Of a stretch of DNA of 29,260 bases, positions 872 through 29,212 are shown one piece after another. Origin of the DNA: a virus. Position 1 is the first letter of the stretch. Each line of letters starts with the position of its first letter. The notes under the pieces were generated by a model that saw only the letters and a list, made by a program, of their open reading frames with translations, was not told the DNA's origin and did not search any database. Where the stretch lies: the IMG/VR virus record IMGVR_UViG_3300045421_000582, positions 1 to 29,260 of that record. The stretch is one strand, 5' to 3'. A program made the position numbers and the translations under genes.

Positions 872-1831
872 GTGAAGCGTTTCTTACACTATAAAGACAT
901 TTTCTTAATTCCAAAAATGTCTGGTCTTCCTACTCGTAAAGTTGCTTCTACATTTACTAAGTTAGGTAACCATATATTTAAAGTGCCTGTTGTGCCTTCC
1001 AATATGAAATGTTCTATCAATGAAAAATTAGCAAAACTATTATCTGAAAACGAATACTTTTATATTATGCATAGATTTAATGTAGATAATTTTGAGTTTG
1101 TAAAAAAGGCTAATGAAGAAGGGTGGAAGACTATTTCTATTAGTGTAGGGGTACATGATAAAGATTATATAGATTTAGAAAATATATTTGCAAACAATTT
1201 ACGATTAGATTTTGTAACTATTGATGTTGCCCACGGTCACCATTCGTTTGTAAAAAACATGTTAGAACATATTTGTAATTTAAAAACAAGCGAAACATAT
1301 GTTATAGCAGGTAATATTGCTACCTCTCAAGCTGCAGAAGATTTGGTTGGATGGGGTACGGATGGTATAAAAGTAGGCATTGGTCAAGGATATGTATGTA
1401 CTACAAAAGATAAAACTGGCTTTACAATGCCTATGTTTACCTGTATTCAAAGCATAGCGGAAAGATGTAAGGTAGATATTATTGCCGATGGAGGAATACG
1501 TTGTAATGGAGATATAGCAAAAGCTATTGTAGCCGGGGCCAGCATGGTAATGTGCGGCGGTATGTTTGCATGTTTATACGACAGCCCCTCACTACTAGTT
1601 AGAGACCCAAATAGCCCGACATTATTTTATAAAGAATATTACGGATCTGCTAGTTTTTATAATAAAGGAACGGAAAATAACGTAGAAGGTAAATTGGAAT
1701 TAATTCCCATGCAGCATAATACATATCTCTGGAAATTAAATGAGATACAACAAGACCTTCAAAGTGCAATTAGTTACGCCGGGGGCGAAGATTTAGAAGC
1801 TTTGTATTATGTAGATATTGGATATAATTAA
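872..1831 (+). CDS. guaC: GMP reductase (NADPH: GMP to IMP + NH3)
   Basis: A 319-residue TIM-barrel enzyme of the IMPDH/GMP reductase family, close in length and motifs to the Bacillus-type GuaC (about 326 residues). Visible landmarks are LGNHIFKVPVVPSNM (31-45), YFYIMHRF (62-69), ISVGV (90-94), the TIDVAHGH segment (117-123), AGNIAT (146-151), a catalytic-loop Cys176 in KVGIGQGYVCTTK, IIADGGIR (203-210), the YKEYYGSAS phosphate-loop region (253-261) and the QDLQSAISYAGG end (294-305). There is no CBS domain, which argues against IMP dehydrogenase. The start is GTG at 872, with a TATAAT box 7 nt upstream and no Shine-Dalgarno. The stop overlaps that of the convergent spike gene in a shared TTAA. 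In infection it would lower GMP and feed the adenine branch. The 7-deazaguanine operon nearby suggests, but does not prove, a link to guanine handling. Confidence 0.92.
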   Translation: MKRFLHYKDIFLIPKMSGLPTRKVASTFTKLGNHIFKVPVVPSNMKCSINEKLAKLLSENEYFYIMHRFNVDNFEFVKKANEEGWKTISISVGVHDKDYIDLENIFANNLRLDFVTIDVAHGHHSFVKNMLEHICNLKTSETYVIAGNIATSQAAEDLVGWGTDGIKVGIGQGYVCTTKDKTGFTMPMFTCIQSIAERCKVDIIADGGIRCNGDIAKAIVAGASMVMCGGMFACLYDSPSLLVRDPNSPTLFYKEYYGSASFYNKGTENNVEGKLELIPMQHNTYLWKLNEIQQDLQSAISYAGGEDLEALYYVDIGYN

Positions 1832-4800
1832 GCGTTAGTCTTTTTCGCATTATTAACAGGTTCTGGTGGTACCGGAGATCCACTATTCATAGCTAGCGCT
1901 ACTTCTCTAACATCAACATTACGCTCTTTAGGATCTGTTGCTATACCAATAAACTGGTGGCTATGAGGTTTAATGGTTATACTATTTTCATCTCTACCGG
2001 TACCGTAAATCATAATAGGCATTAGTTCTGCATTAAGACCCGCTATACCTGCATCGGATCCTTTTACACATCCTGCACCAATTAAACCAGCACCTCCTAT
2101 AGGTCCTGACGGGAGATTTGATCCTACACCGGATCCAAATACTGGAGTATCAAATCCTGCCACACTACTACCATTAGATGATGCTAAAACCGGTACATCG
2201 AGACCACCGGATATTAATCTAGATGCTTTAACTTCAATAGGAATTATGTTAGTGCATATAACAGTTGCACCTTGAGAATCTGTTCCTTGAACATTGCATG
2301 TACCTGCTGGTATATACCCAACAGTTAAATCAGCTTTAATATATCCAATAGGTGTATTAACTTGTAGCCGTCCACATGGAATAGTAGCATCTGTAAATCC
2401 TATATATGGAGGACCCGAAACACCTGCAGTACCTGGTTCATATGCTACAGTACCAAATTCATTAACTATAGGTACCGGCCAATTTGAAAGGGGTACACCA
2501 AAACCAAGTATTTTACCTTTTGTATTAGACATTGGTTCTAATACTGTGGGAGCTCCTTGGAGCGTGGCTTGTTCTGTGGCTTGAATTTCTTTTGGTAGTG
2601 TTATATGATTAGCGCATAGTTCTCCTTCAACATGAAGGCCACCGGCTATAATAACGTTTTTTGTTACTCCTAGATTGCCTTCGACAACAACTTGACCACC
2701 ATTACGCTGACGTAAACTAAGTATATCGCCCACTAACGATAACCGCTTTCCGCCATCAATATTGACTTCGTTTTCACTTGCTACATTAACCTGGGTACCA
2801 GCAATATTCATTATCGTGCCTGTCATATTCACTGGCCCATAAGATTTAAAATTTATACCCCCGGCACCTACTTGAAGGTTGTAACGATTGCATACGTTTA
2901 ATGTGTAATTGCCCCCTGGTAGATCATCTACATGAACATATTCTACAAGAGGTGAAGGTGTTCTATTATAAAATACCCCACCTTTTCCAACACGTACTTC
3001 TGAAACTTCCATCTTACCTTTTGCATCTACTCGAACAGACCCAAAATCATTCATTGTCATACCAATGTTTTCGAATTTGTGCTTTGTTATTTCAATGATT
3101 TGACTTCCACCAATTCCCATTTTCTTTTCTAGATCTGCTAATTCTTTCATTTTTCTAAGAGTTAATTCTTTAACAAACCGCTTACGTGTTTCATTTGCAA
3201 ATGTACCATCTGCAGAACTTGGACTCTTACCTGGAGTGGGTCTTGATTCGCCAAGCATTATAAAACGTTCTTCACCGGGGTCGGGATTACAAGCCGGGCA
3301 CCTTACCCCAAATATCCATCCAGGTCCATTGTTTCCTCCTGAATCACCACCAAAGAATTTTTGAGATAATTCTGGACCGCTTCCAAATTCCGGCTTTCCC
3401 TGAACACCTACTTTTTTTGCTGCAAAGCCGATTGCACCTCCAATTATAGTTTGACTAAAAATAAAATCGCCCGCAGTGTCAGCTATAGTACCAAAAACTT
3501 CATTTTTGTAATCATTTTTTGTAGAGTTATTATAAGCCCAGTATCTATCTTTTTTACCATACATATCTTTAATTGCAGTACAGACTGGACAATCTGCATG
3601 CTGCCCGCTTTTAAATTGACTGGGAGCTGTAAGCTGTAAAATACTATCTTCTATTCTTTCAGCTCTTCTGATTTCAAATAACTGCTTTGTATCTGCTATT
3701 TCTTTAACTATCTCTCTCCATTTTTTATGATAGTCAGCTTTTAAATTTCCAATTTTTAAATAATGATCTCCTTGTACTAAAAAATCTAAATTATTTCCAG
3801 TAAATTCGTTTCTATCTCCCCGAACTGTTAAAAACTGATCATTCAAAACTAACTTTTGATCATTATTAGTAGCAAGTTCAACATTTACTAGATTTGTAAA
3901 TTCTTTAAATGAACCGGAAAAATGAGACATCTTTATTGATTCTCGGTTATCGGTATTTACTATTTGTATAGTACCACCTTTTTGATTTAGTACATATTTG
4001 TTTCTATAAACTTCTGTGTTAATATCATAATTTTCTTTTTGTATGTTTTCGTAAGTTCCTGGATAATCTAAACCTTTATCAGCATTAAATGATGTCCCAT
4101 CAAAAGACTCGCTGCCACCCGTGGTAGTCTGGTAAATTGTTCTCCAATCTTCATTACCGTAAGAAGCAGCAAAATAAACTGGTTTTAAAGGGTCACCTGC
4201 ATTAAAAAATATCCAGACGTGCGCGCCTACGTTGGGTATACTAAAACTTCCTTTTGCAGCATTGCTGTAAGTTTCAGGTAAATAATTAAAAGCAAAAATG
4301 TTTGTATTGTTTGCGTTTGTTTCCTTAGGGTTAATAAAAGCATCATTTAACCGAAAATAATCTTTATCGTAAACTGCACCGGGTTTTTCTCCTATAAGAT
4401 CAAAATTTTGTGTATACTGATATTTTTCAACGACATTCTTATAATTTATTTCACTGCTTGACAATGAATTCACTGTTAACTTTAACTTACTACTATCGCT
4501 AATAGAACCGACATTGTAAAATTTATTATAACGACCACTACTCGACTCCCCTGCTATAGGAGCTGCACATTCAGCCCAAGGCAAAATTCTTTTTAAGTCC
4601 TCCATTATATCTGTCAAATCGCTATTAATATTTGCCCCTAAAAACTTAAACTGCTTATCTTTATTGACTTCATTCCAGTTTTTGTAAACTGTGGGCGTTA
4701 TATGGGGAACAAAAACCTTAATTCGACCACGTTTAGCTGGGTCGTTATTCTGTATTACTATTCCTAAATAATTTCCTAAATACTGTGGATAATCAGACAT
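1828..4800 (-). CDS. gp5-like baseplate hub / central spike protein
   Basis: A 990-residue protein. Residues 10-35 (YLGIVIQNNDPAKRGRIKVF and following) are the OB-fold start typical of T4 gp5 and VgrG-type spikes, and NVGAHVWIFFNAGDPLKPVY (190-209) is a second hallmark. Repetitive beta segments at about 625-725 (NYTLNVCNRYNLQVGAGGI, VNMTGTIMNIAGTQVNVAS) suggest a trimeric beta-helical spike. A region at 400-505 carries two Cys pairs, CPVC (404-407) and CPAC (501-504), suited to one zinc or iron site. Residues 945-948 read PHSH near the C-terminus, resembling metal-binding HxH spike tips. I saw no T4 lysozyme-type catalytic segment, so it is longer than T4 gp5 (575 residues) yet seems to lack that domain. 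It acts at the tail tip during penetration. A degenerate octamer lies 11 nt before the ATG. Confidence 0.8.
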   Translation of the reverse strand: MSDYPQYLGNYLGIVIQNNDPAKRGRIKVFVPHITPTVYKNWNEVNKDKQFKFLGANINSDLTDIMEDLKRILPWAECAAPIAGESSSGRYNKFYNVGSISDSSKLKLTVNSLSSSEINYKNVVEKYQYTQNFDLIGEKPGAVYDKDYFRLNDAFINPKETNANNTNIFAFNYLPETYSNAAKGSFSIPNVGAHVWIFFNAGDPLKPVYFAASYGNEDWRTIYQTTTGGSESFDGTSFNADKGLDYPGTYENIQKENYDINTEVYRNKYVLNQKGGTIQIVNTDNRESIKMSHFSGSFKEFTNLVNVELATNNDQKLVLNDQFLTVRGDRNEFTGNNLDFLVQGDHYLKIGNLKADYHKKWREIVKEIADTKQLFEIRRAERIEDSILQLTAPSQFKSGQHADCPVCTAIKDMYGKKDRYWAYNNSTKNDYKNEVFGTIADTAGDFIFSQTIIGGAIGFAAKKVGVQGKPEFGSGPELSQKFFGGDSGGNNGPGWIFGVRCPACNPDPGEERFIMLGESRPTPGKSPSSADGTFANETRKRFVKELTLRKMKELADLEKKMGIGGSQIIEITKHKFENIGMTMNDFGSVRVDAKGKMEVSEVRVGKGGVFYNRTPSPLVEYVHVDDLPGGNYTLNVCNRYNLQVGAGGINFKSYGPVNMTGTIMNIAGTQVNVASENEVNIDGGKRLSLVGDILSLRQRNGGQVVVEGNLGVTKNVIIAGGLHVEGELCANHITLPKEIQATEQATLQGAPTVLEPMSNTKGKILGFGVPLSNWPVPIVNEFGTVAYEPGTAGVSGPPYIGFTDATIPCGRLQVNTPIGYIKADLTVGYIPAGTCNVQGTDSQGATVICTNIIPIEVKASRLISGGLDVPVLASSNGSSVAGFDTPVFGSGVGSNLPSGPIGGAGLIGAGCVKGSDAGIAGLNAELMPIMIYGTGRDENSITIKPHSHQFIGIATDPKERNVDVREVALAMNSGSPVPPEPVNNAKKTNA

Positions 4801-4827
4801 TGATATACGAGTATTTACTTATATAAT
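4800..4827 (+). promoter_or_regulatory. Sigma70-like promoter of the 7-deazaguanine operon
   Basis: TTGATA at 4800-4805, a 16-nt spacer and TATAAT at 4822-4827 form a near-consensus host-type promoter on the plus strand. The ATG at 4834 falls 7 nt after the last base of the -10, which is the expected +1, so the message would be leaderless or carry at most a nucleotide or two. An AGG lies directly against the ATG, too close to act as a normal Shine-Dalgarno. This suggests early or middle expression by unmodified host polymerase, unlike the late-type promoters elsewhere in the window. Confidence 0.6.
4812..4819 (-). promoter_or_regulatory. Late-like octamer before the gp5-like gene
   Basis: Read on the minus strand this is AGTAAATA, followed by 11 nt to the ATG at 4800. 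The predicted leader is about 5 nt and lacks a Shine-Dalgarno. It overlaps the spacer of the oppositely directed sigma70-like promoter for the DpdA operon. Confidence 0.4.
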
Positions 4828-4833
4828 ATTAGG

Positions 4834-5646
4834 ATGCTAATAAAAGTATCTCACGAATCTCCCATATCTATTATAGATTATTCACAGACATATAATGATT
4901 TTGACTACGCATTAGTTCATTTATTTGAGACAAAATCTAATTATTACAATTATTTTAAAACAGCACGGAATATACATAACCGAGAAGTTCTATTAGATAA
5001 CTCTATATTTGAACTCGGTACTGCTTTTAATAGGGATAAATTTTTTCAAGCAGCACTAGACATACAGCCAAATATGTTTATTGTACCAGATGTTTTAGAA
5101 GATTCAGATGCTACGATTGATAGTTATATAAATTTTAGAGATCAGGCCGGAGCATTAAAAAGTTCTTTCTTTTCTCGAGCTATTGGTGCTATACAAGGTA
5201 AAAATTGGCAAGACTTGAAAGATTGTTATGAATTTATGTCTAATGAAACAGATATGATTGCGATTAGCTTTGATTTAAGTTATTATCAAGTAACCGGTGA
5301 AGGTCATTCAAAATTAGAAAAGTTTTGTTCAGGAAGAAAGCGGTTTATATCACAGCTAATTGATTGTGGTTTATGGAATTGGAATAAACCACACCATTTA
5401 CTTGGTTGTTCGTTAGCAAAAGAATTTAGATTTTATGTTGATAAAAATATTTATAATATTGTAAGTTGTGATACAAGTAACCCGGTTGTCGCCGCTATAC
5501 ACGGCTTAAAATATGATGCTGATTATGGTATACCCACAAAACCAACAACAAAGTTAGCTGATTTAATTGACCACGAGCTTACACCTACGCAATTGAATAT
5601 TTTAAATTATAACGTAAATATGTTTAAAAAAATTATTCGTAGATGA
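4834..5646 (+). CDS. dpdA: DpdA-like DNA guanine transglycosylase (TGT superfamily)
   Basis: A 270-residue TIM-barrel-type protein matching the pattern of phage TGT/DpdA enzymes, which exchange guanine in DNA for a 7-deazaguanine. The VLLDNSIFELG segment (52-62, Asp55) corresponds to the DSGGFQ region of tRNA TGT. MFIVPDVLED (81-90) and IGAIQGKNWQDL (117-128) are typical of phage members. HHLLGCSL (187-194) leads to SCDTSNPVV (211-219), where Asp213 is the likely nucleophile. It is shorter than tRNA TGTs and shows no clear C-terminal zinc cluster. It starts the operon, overlapping the formyltransferase by an ATGA, and QueF in the same operon fits the same chemistry. The DpdA subfamily cannot be assigned by eye. 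Confidence 0.82.
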   Translation: MLIKVSHESPISIIDYSQTYNDFDYALVHLFETKSNYYNYFKTARNIHNREVLLDNSIFELGTAFNRDKFFQAALDIQPNMFIVPDVLEDSDATIDSYINFRDQAGALKSSFFSRAIGAIQGKNWQDLKDCYEFMSNETDMIAISFDLSYYQVTGEGHSKLEKFCSGRKRFISQLIDCGLWNWNKPHHLLGCSLAKEFRFYVDKNIYNIVSCDTSNPVVAAIHGLKYDADYGIPTKPTTKLADLIDHELTPTQLNILNYNVNMFKKIIRR

Positions 5647-6215
5647 GACCCTGGGTTACATTTTTTTCACAAACAGGAACTGAAATTTACGACTTAAGTA
5701 ATGCACTTGGTGTGTATCCTGACAGTATAGTTACCAATAGACATACCAAGGACGGGATAAATCAAAAATTAATCGAACTAACTAAGTTTCGTGCTACTAA
5801 ATTAAATAAGCCACATACCTGGTATATGATACCGAATAAACCGACTATTGAAAATTATGAAAATGTTTTGAGTGTATATAGTAATCCGATTGTGACTTTA
5901 CACGGCTACTTAAGAATTATACCAAAGCAGATTTGTGAAAAGTATGAGATATATAATTTGCATCCCGGCCTTATTGATAAGTTTCCTTCTATGAAAGGAT
6001 TTAATCCGCAAGAGAGGGCTTTCCGTGAAGGATATAAATTGGCTGGTTGTGTCATACATCGTGTCACACCGGGTGTAGATGAAGGTGAAATTTTGATGAG
6101 TCAAGGAGAGCAAATTGATGGATTATCTTTAGACGATGTCTATACTAAATTAAGAAAAGTGGCGCTAGATTTATGGATAAGTTTTTTAAAAGGATGTAAG
6201 ATATTAGAGAAATGA
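5643..6215 (+). CDS. dpdN: PurN-fold formyltransferase, probable dPreQ1 formyltransferase (DpdN-like)
   Basis: A 190-residue protein with the glycinamide ribonucleotide formyltransferase fold. The N-terminal VTFFSQTGTEI resembles the phosphate-binding start. The catalytic Asn-His-Asp set is in place: N105 and H107 in YNLHPGL, and D146 in PGVDEGEIL. The segment AFREGYKLAGCVIH (126-139) matches the PurN region before the catalytic Asp. Formyltransferases of this fold linked to DpdA have been predicted to make 7-(formylamino)methyl-7-deazaguanine in phage DNA, using 10-formyltetrahydrofolate. The ATGA overlaps with dpdA and with the next gene, and the presence of queF, favour that role over purine synthesis. 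PurN activity remains the alternative. Confidence 0.75.
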   Translation: MRPWVTFFSQTGTEIYDLSNALGVYPDSIVTNRHTKDGINQKLIELTKFRATKLNKPHTWYMIPNKPTIENYENVLSVYSNPIVTLHGYLRIIPKQICEKYEIYNLHPGLIDKFPSMKGFNPQERAFREGYKLAGCVIHRVTPGVDEGEILMSQGEQIDGLSLDDVYTKLRKVALDLWISFLKGCKILEK

Positions 6216-6559
6216 CCTCTCAAGAAATTATTCAATATGTAGAAACTACATATCCTGAAACATGTAGTGAATTTAAAAAAATACAATCTGAACATTATGA
6301 GACGTTTTGTAAAAAACAATTTGACTACGGACCACATAATATTAGCCTAGGTTCCGATTTATTTAAACAAGAAGATATAACAGCATCAGTTTCTGCTATT
6401 GTTGTACGGTTGAATGATAAGATTCAAAGATTAATTAATCTTGTGCTACGTAAAAAAACTTTTGATACAGCAAATGAGCCTGTATTCGATGCTTTTAGTG
6501 ATACTTCGGTATATTGTATTATTGCCGAAATAGTAAAAAGAAGAAAATGGTGTAAATGA
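6212..6559 (+). CDS. Nucleotide modification associated domain 1 (Nmad1/DUF1599) protein
   Basis: A 115-residue, largely helical protein. Diagnostic segments are KKQFDYGPHNISLG (34-47), VRLNDKIQRLINL (65-77), the NEP at 88-90 and DAFSDTSVYCIIAEIVKRRKW (93-113). These match the DUF1599/Nmad1 family, which comparative genomics has associated with hypermodified phage DNA; its biochemical activity is not settled to my knowledge. It is translationally coupled by ATGA overlaps on both sides, to the formyltransferase and to a 49-residue ORF. Its place between dpdN and queF makes a role in modified-nucleotide supply or processing the natural inference. Confidence 0.75.
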   Translation: MTSQEIIQYVETTYPETCSEFKKIQSEHYETFCKKQFDYGPHNISLGSDLFKQEDITASVSAIVVRLNDKIQRLINLVLRKKTFDTANEPVFDAFSDTSVYCIIAEIVKRRKWCK

Positions 6560-6705
6560 AGAAAAAAGAGCGCCCGAAGTATGTTTGGGTTGATGATGAT
6601 AATCATCTACTAAAGGGATATTTTAAATTACAAGAAATAGCTGACAATGCCACAATAACTATTTTTAAGAAATTAAAAGCTTGTATTAAAAAATTATTCC
6701 GTTAA
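6556..6705 (+). CDS. Small basic hypothetical protein, 49 residues
   Basis: This ORF starts with an ATG overlapping the Nmad1 stop (ATGA) and ends at TAA, 10 nt before the kinase. The product begins MKKKERPKYVWVDDDNHLL and ends in a Lys-rich helix (FKKLKACIKKLFR). I recognise no domain. The coupling signal, the exact fit into the gap and the shared strand support a real gene. The basic, amphipathic C-terminus could bind nucleic acid or membrane, but that is guesswork. Confidence 0.55.
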   Translation: MKKKERPKYVWVDDDNHLLKGYFKLQEIADNATITIFKKLKACIKKLFR

Positions 6706-6715
6706 GATATAGTTA

Positions 6716-7303
6716 GTGAATATAACGTTTACGGGCCCGCATTGTTCAGGTAAAACTACTTTGCTAAAGAAAATGAAAGAAGAAGAGAGTATTAAATGGC
6801 TTGGAGATAGGTTTTTTTATATTGATGAAGTTACTCGGTTAGTTAAAAGAGAATTTAATGTTAGTATAAACGAAGAAGGTGCTAATGACATTACTCAACT
6901 GTTAATTATTAATAAAGAACTAGAAAATTTATTTAGAGCTGATATATTGTCATCATGTAAAGGTGCAGTTCATGATAGGTGTCTTATGGATGGGTTTTTA
7001 TATACAGATTATTTTCACGATAAAAAACTAGTTAGTGATAATGTATGGATGCAGTCTATGTGGTATTGGCTTAGATATCATACTAAATACGATATTATTT
7101 TATATCCTGACCCTACTGATGTAATACTGATTGATGACGGTGAAAGAAGTGTAGATCAGAATTTTAGAAATATAATGATAGAAAAGTTCGAACACTATAT
7201 AAAGCAATCGCAATGGAAAGATAGGGTATATAGACTAAAAGGAACAATTGAAGAAAGGATGAATCAAATTAAATTAATAATAAATGAACACACAACTCGA
7301 TAA
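6716..7303 (+). CDS. P-loop kinase of the AAA_28 / NadR-like type
   Basis: A 195-residue protein with a Walker A at residues 7-15 (GPHCSGKTT), a DEVTR segment at 37-41, and HDRCLMDGFLY (86-96), the DR-containing lid-proximal motif seen in small nucleotide and nucleoside kinases of the NadR/AAA_28 group. A YDIILYPDPT strand (115-124) and a GERSVDQNFR segment (137-146) complete the fold. The start is GTG at 6716; no Shine-Dalgarno is evident. Its end overlaps the start of queF by 20 bases. The substrate is unknown: a free nucleotide, nicotinamide riboside or a modified base are all possible. A second AAA_28-like kinase lies at 28457-29212. Confidence 0.7.
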   Translation: MNITFTGPHCSGKTTLLKKMKEEESIKWLGDRFFYIDEVTRLVKREFNVSINEEGANDITQLLIINKELENLFRADILSSCKGAVHDRCLMDGFLYTDYFHDKKLVSDNVWMQSMWYWLRYHTKYDIILYPDPTDVILIDDGERSVDQNFRNIMIEKFEHYIKQSQWKDRVYRLKGTIEERMNQIKLIINEHTTR

Positions 7304-8198
7304 TAGTAATATTTCAAAGCATTTAGGCAAGATTACTGGTTACAAATGTACATATGACCCGTCTTTATTAGTACCTGAACCAAGACAAAATAATAGAAAA
7401 CATTTAGGCATAAAGGACGACAATTTACCTTTTAAAGGATATGATATTTGGAATGCATATGAAGTATCTTGTTTAACAGCAGAAGGCATGCCAATAGCAG
7501 CAATAGCAAAAATTGTTTATCCCTGTAATAGTGAGTACATCGTAGAATCTAAATCGATCAAATTGTATCTTAACTCATTTAACATGGAAAAATTTAAAGG
7601 TAATATTATAAGTGTATTGAATCAATTACAAGATAAAATTAGTATAGATCTTTCTTTACTATTAAAAACAGATGTCCTTGTATATGTAAGATCTACTACA
7701 TCTATTGATGATGGTGCTTATTATCCTCCAGTATTTCCCAATAGTGAATATCCTAATTTAGAATTAGAAATTGATGTAACGATGATACAAGCATTATCTT
7801 ATAGTGAGAATCCTAATCTTTTAAATGCTATTGAAATACCAGAATCTAGGACCCAAAGATTTCATTCTGCTTTATTAAAAAGTAACTGCAGAGTAACATC
7901 TCAGCCAGATTGGGGCGATGTTTACATACATTACAAAGGTAGGTATGAAATTAATAAAGTTTCATTACTGCAATATATTATATCATTCCGAGATGAATGT
8001 CATTTTCATGAAGAGATTTGTGAGACAATTTATAAACGTTTTTATGATAAATTTAACCCTGAAGAGTTAGTTGTATCGTGTTTATATGTCCGGCGTGGCG
8101 GTATTGATATTAATCCAACTCGCGCAAGCAGTTATGATTTATTAGATAGAAACCTAGTTGATAAGTTTAAGTACTTTACGAAAACTGTCAGGCAGTAA
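7284..8198 (+). CDS. queF: NADPH-dependent 7-cyano-7-deazaguanine reductase (preQ0 to preQ1)
   Basis: A 304-residue long-form (bimodular, E. coli-type) QueF. DNLPFKGYDIWNAYEVSCL (46-64) matches the E. coli start region. The signature ESKSIKLYLNSFN is at 88-100. LLKSNCRVTSQPDWG (197-211) holds the catalytic Cys202 and Asp209, FHEEICE (241-247) supplies the substrate-binding Glu, and the C-terminus reads RRGGIDINP (270-278) and TVRQ. Long-form E. coli QueF has 282 residues. QueF performs the four-electron reduction of preQ0 to preQ1. Here it closes the operon that begins with dpdA, so preQ1 is the expected base or precursor for DNA modification. No folE, queD, queE or queC is present in the window. 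Confidence 0.95.
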   Translation: MNTQLDNSNISKHLGKITGYKCTYDPSLLVPEPRQNNRKHLGIKDDNLPFKGYDIWNAYEVSCLTAEGMPIAAIAKIVYPCNSEYIVESKSIKLYLNSFNMEKFKGNIISVLNQLQDKISIDLSLLLKTDVLVYVRSTTSIDDGAYYPPVFPNSEYPNLELEIDVTMIQALSYSENPNLLNAIEIPESRTQRFHSALLKSNCRVTSQPDWGDVYIHYKGRYEINKVSLLQYIISFRDECHFHEEICETIYKRFYDKFNPEELVVSCLYVRRGGIDINPTRASSYDLLDRNLVDKFKYFTKTVRQ

Positions 8199-28255: not shown

Positions 28256-28470
28256 GCTCTGGTGTGAAAAAATAATGCTTTATTAATTTTTCTTAAAGCA
28301 TTTCTTTTATCGTGCCCTTCATCTACAAGTCTTTTGTATTCGTCTCTAAAAGCTTTAATAAAGTTTTCTGAAAGCTTAAAATTTTTAGGATAAAACTCCC
28401 TTTTCACTATTCTTACGGAAGTAGGGTAGCTTTCCAATAATTGTTCAAACTTGTCATTAAATTTTGTCAC
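28252..28470 (-). CDS. Small hypothetical protein, 72 residues
   Basis: A helical, charged protein starting at GTG, chosen because a late octamer lies 5 nt upstream. KLSENFIKAFRDEYKRLVDEGHDKRNALRKINKALFF suggests two helices. It overlaps the end of the upstream kinase gene by 14 nt, so the octamer is inside kinase coding sequence. No family is recognised. Confidence 0.55.
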   Translation of the reverse strand: MTKFNDKFEQLLESYPTSVRIVKREFYPKNFKLSENFIKAFRDEYKRLVDEGHDKRNALRKINKALFFHTRA

Positions 28471-29212
28471 GTAAATATTTATTGTTTACCATGATCTGCT
28501 TCTTAATTTTCTTTTCTTGTTTTTCTTCATTACTAATATTCTGTTGAGTTTCAAGTAAAGACTGCATTTCACTAAGATTTTCAAAACTTAATACACTTTC
28601 ATCAGAATCAATTAAATCACCATCTTGACCGAGATAAAACTTAATCATTTGAATACGCTCTTCTGGTTTACCAAATATTTCAATAATTGGAGGCCTATCT
28701 GCTGGATCAAAAAAAGGAGATTTATTTTGATTAGCCTGATATGAAATTGCTTTAAAGATGTTATCTATTTCTTCAATAAAAAGCCGATCAATTTCTCGAG
28801 TAGCTTTTTTCTCAAGCTTTACAGGTGCTGCCTTAGTAATTGGAATAAAGAAAATTATATCTATGAATTTCATGCTTTCTTTAACTAGAGGGATACATTT
28901 TTTTATAAATTCATCATCTATATCAGAACTACCTTTTCCATTACTCCAAAGAGAATAAACTAAATTATCTAACGGACAGCGATCAAAAAGTATTTTTTCA
29001 CCTTTACTAGTTTTTTGAACATCATTTATAAGACAATTTAAAATTTTCCATTGACCTTCCTGATTTACTCCTTTGTTTATTTTAAGCTTTTCCTCTTTTA
29101 TAACTTGCCTATAAGATTCGTCTGATTTTTTATACATTGGCCAATTATTAATAATATCATTTATTAAAGTCGATTTACCCTGGCAAGCAGATCCACAAAT
29201 TGCAATTCGCAT
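28457..29212 (-). CDS. P-loop kinase of the AAA_28 / NadR-like type (second copy)
   Basis: A 251-residue protein. Walker A GSACQGKST is at residues 7-15, the conserved FDRCPLDNLVYS at about 75-86, and the strand FIDIIFFIPIT with ATREIDRLFIEEID follows. It is larger than the 195-residue kinase at 6716-7303, with a C-terminal acidic and Gln/Lys-rich extension of about 50 residues. The substrate is unknown. The ATG at 29212 has a -10-like TAAAAT 6 nt upstream and no Shine-Dalgarno. Confidence 0.7.
   Translation of the reverse strand: MRIAICGSACQGKSTLINDIINNWPMYKKSDESYRQVIKEEKLKINKGVNQEGQWKILNCLINDVQKTSKGEKILFDRCPLDNLVYSLWSNGKGSSDIDDEFIKKCIPLVKESMKFIDIIFFIPITKAAPVKLEKKATREIDRLFIEEIDNIFKAISYQANQNKSPFFDPADRPPIIEIFGKPEERIQMIKFYLGQDGDLIDSDESVLSFENLSEMQSLLETQQNISNEEKQEKKIKKQIMVNNKYLRDKI
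28476..28483 (-). promoter_or_regulatory. T4-late-like promoter inside the kinase gene
   Basis: Minus-strand AATAAATA followed by 5 nt (TTTAC) and the GTG at 28470. It is encoded within the Asn-Lys-Tyr codons near the kinase C-terminus, so the promoter and the coding sequence share bases. No Shine-Dalgarno is present. Confidence 0.6.

Follow-up and report, generated by a model that had tools for sequence, protein, structure and literature searches.

The window analysed here is the entire 29,260-base virus record IMGVR_UViG_3300045421_000582, a fragment of a larger phage genome, and the system in question is a cassette of five plus-strand genes at positions 4834–8198, which encode a DpdA-like protein, a formyltransferase, a DUF1599-like protein, a P-loop kinase and a two-domain QueF (Table 1). 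Genes for a major head protein, portal, head protease, tail sheath stabiliser and baseplate hub on the minus strand mark the source as a T4-like phage. The initial annotation had described the region as an operon of three genes joined by ATGA overlaps, by which the phage would replace some or all guanine in its DNA with formylated preQ1 made from host preQ0. The three genes that it named (DpdA-like, formyltransferase and QueF) are present, all on the plus strand and with Pfam and fold support, whereas the DUF1599-like gene and the kinase gene before QueF had been omitted, and the operon therefore does not consist of three genes only. ATGA overlaps occur at two junctions only, DpdA/formyltransferase and formyltransferase/DUF1599-like gene. 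The overlap description fails for QueF, which overlaps the kinase gene by 20 base pairs (bp), and a gap of about 156 bp lies between the DUF1599-like gene and the kinase gene.

Table 1. Cassette genes and other features of the window
Feature	Coordinates	Strand	Basis
DpdA-type guanine transglycosylase, 270 amino acids (aa), immuto/CP220 subfamily	4834..5646	+	tRNA guanine transglycosylase (TGT)-like fold, hidden Markov model (HMM), motifs
Formyltransferase, 190 aa, PurN fold, predicted DpdN-like preQ1/dPreQ1 formylation	5643..6215	+	Formyl_trans_N, structure model, tree
DUF1599 (nucleotide modification associated domain 1)-like protein, 115 aa	6212..6559	+	Family matches to PF07659
P-loop nucleoside/nucleotide kinase-like protein (AAA_28), 195 aa, GTG start	6716..7303	+	AAA_28, PHROG thymidylate kinase
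Bimodular QueF (probable preQ0 nitrile reductase), 304 aa	7284..8198	+	TIGR03138, QueF structure 3bp1, conserved residues
GMP reductase (GuaC-like), extended cassette member	872..1831	+	Full-length match to 1ypf
Second AAA_28 P-loop kinase	28457..29212	-	AAA_28, 5.7e-8
Possible sigma-70-type promoter, TTGATA-16-TATAAT, 11/12	4800..4827	+	Consensus scan only

The transglycosylase, QueF and the formyltransferase

The DpdA-like protein was recognised by fold search alone: sequence searches against the PDB and Pfam gave nothing usable, and hhalign comparisons with single TGT or DpdA1 sequences gave weak matches only. For its AlphaFold model (predicted local distance difference test score (pLDDT) 93), all of the PDB matches listed were TGT structures, the best at E 3e-9 with a probability of 1.0. 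By eye, D55-N-S-x-F (LDNSIF) aligns with LDSGAF of the phage 9g DpdA and DSGGF of TGT, and D213-T-S-N-P (CDTSNP) aligns with CDSSS of 9g DpdA and DCVMP of TGT; the putative catalytic aspartates, D55 and D213, are invariant in 40 DpdA relatives. The protein shares 42% identity with the DpdA of Flavobacterium phage vB_FspM_immuto_2-6A (immuto; MW353175) and 43% with that of the Campylobacter phage CP220 group (Firehammervirus). An HMM made from the window relatives only, with immuto and CP220 left out of training, scored the immuto and CP220 proteins at 343 and 255 bits, respectively, compared with 1.4 bits for 9g DpdA1, -1.6 bits for DpdA2 of Vibrio phage VH7D and 1.4 bits for E. coli TGT. By these sequence comparisons, the protein is a member of the short immuto/CP220 subfamily, not of DpdA1, DpdA2 or TGT. 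The immuto member is annotated as DNA-modifying, and the fold, subfamily and motifs predict that the window protein inserts a 7-deazaguanine into DNA. This subfamily is the one called DpdA3, reportedly by Cui et al. in 2023.

QueF matches the Pfam families QueF_N (2e-35) and QueF (4e-22) and, over nearly its full length, the bimodular QueF structure 3bp1 (E 1e-71). C202, D209, H242-E243 and the ESKSxKLY stretch, the NADPH motif of QueF, are all invariant across 26 relatives, and the long-form QueF claimed in the initial annotation was thus borne out as a two-domain protein with intact catalytic residues. Its score lies below the NCBIfam TIGR03138 equivalog cut-off (263.8 versus 293.45 bits), which is a curated annotation threshold and not a functional feature. 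Because these residues are invariant, the sequence favours a nitrile reductase, giving preQ1, rather than the archaeal amidotransferase form, in agreement with the 'QueF-L' of phage Dp-1, which has been reported to give dPreQ1 (PMC6884629).

The formyltransferase matches Pfam Formyl_trans_N (E 5.5e-16), and its structure model (pLDDT 95) matches PurN structures at E 4e-12. The intact N-H-D catalytic residues noted initially were confirmed as N105 and H107, both invariant, and D146, found in 42 of 43 relatives including the window. The enzyme shares its fold and these residues with PurN but differs from it in the N-terminal loop (ISGNGSN in E. coli PurN, FSQTGTE in the window) and in its genomic partners. 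When placed in a tree alongside PurN, PurU and Fmt, the window and immuto enzymes form one separate clade with a support of 100/100; a placement inside PurN, which the initial annotation had regarded as counting against its proposal, was thus not observed. The score also did not reach the PurN equivalog cut-off of TIGR00639 (56.3 versus 150.1 bits). In addition, 84,980 bacterial and archaeal genomes yielded only two matches to the formyltransferase, both on contigs of metagenome-assembled genomes (MAGs) and one of them clearly phage-like, and the MAG bearing the phage formyltransferase also has a separate PurN of its own (178 versus 23 bits). Among 50,697 phage records, full-length close relatives were found in four immuto records only. 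From its genomic context, the enzyme is predicted to be DpdN-like, acting on preQ1 or dPreQ1; the base fdPreQ1 was reportedly described in 2023 by Cui et al., together with a predicted dPreQ1 formyltransferase named DpdN.

Three loci with degenerate or diverged DpdA genes were also seen. The locus L087 (5911-7387) is apparently degenerate, with DpdA split across two overlapping frames and the catalytic Asp of the formyltransferase changed to Ala. Chryseobacterium phage MA9V-3 (L200 3980-4774) carries, in the neighbourhood of folE, a distant relative of DpdA (24% identity) in which the active-site motifs are altered. For IMGVR_UViG_3300032007_000049 (L212 1541-3464), a divergent DpdA (~39% identity) occurs without the kinase, QueF and formyltransferase, and a radical-SAM gene lies directly before it, possibly representing a different base-tailoring system.

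Conservation of the cassette and the source of preQ0

We compared 133 DpdA loci for which 4.5 kb or more of downstream sequence was available; some contigs are counted twice. The formyltransferase, QueF and kinase were all present in 110 loci, QueF and the kinase in 14, the kinase only in 7, none of them in one and the formyltransferase only in one. For the 90 IMG/VR loci that were seeded by DpdA alone, all three were found in 69, QueF without the formyltransferase in 14, and neither in 7. The gene order of the window is repeated in these 69 loci, that is, in at least 69 uncultured-phage contigs, indicating that the arrangement is not due to chance. None of the 90 loci contained the formyltransferase without QueF, as would be expected if preQ1 is the acceptor.

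In its genes 65-69, immuto carries DpdA, the formyltransferase (48% identity), the kinase (28%, annotated as 'thymidylate kinase') and QueF (46%) in the identical order, and the cassette is therefore of a known type; the window presents an extended gene set, and the cassette is spread across uncultured phages. FolE, QueD and QueE lie nearby, upstream of the immuto cassette, and DNA polymerase A comes after it. Unlike the window, immuto has neither the DUF1599-like gene nor the GMP reductase in its cassette, and a pyrophosphohydrolase gene of the MazG/PRA-PH type closely precedes its DpdA gene. In the CP220 group, a DpdA of the same subfamily is followed by the same kinase family, whereas no QueF or formyltransferase adjoins DpdA; Campylobacter phages have been reported with dADG (PMC6884629). 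The phage 9g (DpdA1) and Vibrio phage VH7D (DpdA2) systems follow the same logic, in which phage preQ0 genes accompany a TGT-like DNA transglycosylase, and VH7D likewise has QueF. Conversely, their transglycosylases are longer (317 and 458 aa, respectively), with no sequence similarity detected by the HMM even though the 9g catalytic motifs line up with those of the window, and no formyltransferase is annotated at either locus.

The supply of preQ0 by the host, as proposed in the initial annotation, was not upheld, since the window is only a 29-kb fragment and larger relatives carry genes of the preQ0 pathway. FolE, QueD and QueC are encoded together in 12 of 20 larger related contigs, and QueE is also present in most of those 12. 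In one relative (G005), QueE, QueD and FolE lie directly past the second kinase, ~25 kb from DpdA, and a homologue of this kinase adjoins QueE in the loci L128-L130 and lies near QueE in most large relatives. In the window, the second kinase is located ~24 kb from DpdA, and the contig ends 48 bases beyond it; these last 48 bases encode no QueE C-terminus, and the window itself is silent on QueE. Relatives thus encode preQ0 genes about where the contig stops, and the impression of host preQ0 is most simply explained by the contig ending there. As judged from these relatives, the phage most likely makes its own preQ0 via FolE, QueD, QueE and QueC encoded beyond the end of the fragment. The genome search for these genes was not positive throughout, as none of FolE, QueD and QueC was found in a 147-kb relative (G010), and some members may depend on the host for preQ0.

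A predicted fdPreQ1 cassette and alternative readings

Taken together, we consider it quite probable that the operon makes a formylated preQ1 base and inserts it for guanine in phage DNA, representing a predicted fdPreQ1 cassette. This reading draws on the synteny with immuto, the DpdA subfamily, the TGT and PurN folds, the intact active sites, the formyltransferase clade, the nesting of the formyltransferase within QueF-bearing loci, the lack of AIRS_C genes (below), the separate PurN of the MAG and the phage-encoded preQ0 pathway. The core of the initial proposal, formyl-preQ1 in phage DNA, is thus retained, without its host preQ0 and its three-gene operon. In the proposed pathway, preQ0 from the phage's own enzymes would be converted to preQ1 by QueF, the DpdA-type enzyme would exchange guanine for the 7-deazaguanine base, and the PurN-fold enzyme would formylate the aminomethyl group, with 10-formyl-tetrahydrofolate as the donor, to yield 7-(formylamino)methyl-7-deazaguanine; the kinase would be a core partner. 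The benefit is likely to be resistance to host restriction enzymes.

Several points weigh against this reading. The formylation target may be the free base, a nucleotide or DNA. In a phage-like contig of a Clostridiales MAG (DUVY01000197.1; L197 182-4391), MazG, DpdA, the formyltransferase and DNA polymerase A are consecutive, and QueF and the kinase are absent from the 8 kb seen, giving DpdA and the formyltransferase without QueF. When mapped on the DpdA tree, the nesting of the formyltransferase within QueF-bearing loci comes down to only 4-5 independent changes, and it is directional but not significant by a sign test.

The formyltransferase might instead be a conventional PurN that serves to raise purine synthesis and lies beside a 7-deazaguanine operon by chance, given that PurN is both its nearest solved fold and its nearest sequence family and that PurN-type genes occur in cyanophages, for example in P-SSM2. 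However, no PurM/PurL-type (AIRS_C) genes were found in 19 large relatives, and the enzyme is joined to DpdA and QueF in most DpdA-seeded loci while being nearly absent from cellular genomes. These observations, together with the score below the PurN cut-off and the separate clade, led us to reject a role in purine synthesis, which we regard as highly improbable. Even less credible is an operon that boosts queuosine in host tRNA instead of modifying phage DNA. Although QueF and preQ1 are parts of queuosine synthesis, the first gene of the operon encodes a transglycosylase of a subfamily annotated as DNA-modifying in immuto, and to our knowledge formyl-preQ1 is not an intermediate of queuosine. 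In favour of a role in tRNA, some phages have been found to carry preQ0 genes without DpdA (PMC6884629).

The final base might also differ, with preQ1 or dPreQ1 being made and the formyl group being placed elsewhere, or with formylation being an intermediate to another derivative. Tailoring variants do occur in related phages, which have QueF only or neither QueF nor the formyltransferase, but only the DUF1599-like gene, the kinase and the GMP reductase recur between the core genes, with no further tailoring gene, and we consider a different final base unlikely. The predicted formyl-preQ1 cassette, represented here in one isolated phage group (immuto), is widespread in uncultured T4-like phages, usually with a phage-encoded preQ0 pathway, and a large sequence family is now at hand for DpdN-type enzymes.

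The kinase and nucleotide-pool genes

The kinase matches AAA_28 (E 5e-13) and the PHROG thymidylate kinase family (1.4e-24); all 36 kinase members match AAA_28, and a few also match dNK or thymidylate kinase. It adjoins DpdA in 89 of the 90 DpdA-seeded loci, whether or not QueF and the formyltransferase are present. At E 1e-3, it was found in 18 of the 50,697 phage records, which are identical to the 18 Campylobacter and Flavobacterium records with a close DpdA relative. These results indicate that neither the formyltransferase nor QueF is as closely associated with this DpdA subfamily as the kinase, which is a near-obligate core partner.

Other genes of nucleotide metabolism accompany the subfamily. 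The GMP reductase of the window matches GMP reductase 1ypf at 360 bits, and in many close relatives this gene sits between the formyltransferase and the DUF1599-like gene, suggesting control of the guanine-nucleotide pool. In the DUF1599-like family, 8 of 11 members match PF07659 (best E 1.8e-4), although the window copy gave no match. In other lineages, a MazG/PRA-PH pyrophosphohydrolase (immuto, L197) or an HD-domain protein (CP220) lies beside DpdA.

The kinase could serve a nucleotide-level exchange route, act as an ATP-dependent partner of DpdA or recycle the released guanine. In the accepted view, DpdA acts on finished DNA. The pairing of this DpdA subfamily with the kinase and nucleotide-pool enzymes (GMP reductase and DUF1599-like; MazG-type elsewhere) raises the question of whether its substrates include the nucleotide pool and not DNA alone. 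The base would be exchanged either on nucleotides or within a complex that depends on ATP, and guanine could then be replaced completely. A parallel for the nucleotide-level reading is provided by the 2-aminoadenine (Z) phages, in which nucleotide-pool enzymes supply the modified dNTP. We regard this proposal as doubtful, though somewhat less so than a different final base; if true, nucleotide-level exchange would depart from the accepted view. The near-obligate kinase partner makes the question of complete guanine replacement by some phages directly testable.

None of DpdA, the formyltransferase and QueF was matched by PADLOC. The candidate promoter upstream of DpdA (Table 1) is suggestive at most, as the scan gave 53 such sites in 9 kb compared with 43 expected by chance; the match stops 6 bases short of the DpdA ATG, and a genuine promoter at this place would give a transcript with little or no leader. 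Matches to a T4-type late promoter pattern (TATAAATA) were fewer than expected by chance. In contig IMGVR_UViG_3300045612_000391 (L211 1818-5144), genes for the large and small subunits of ribonucleotide reductase lie upstream of a near-identical cassette, in a region corresponding to the left of the window.

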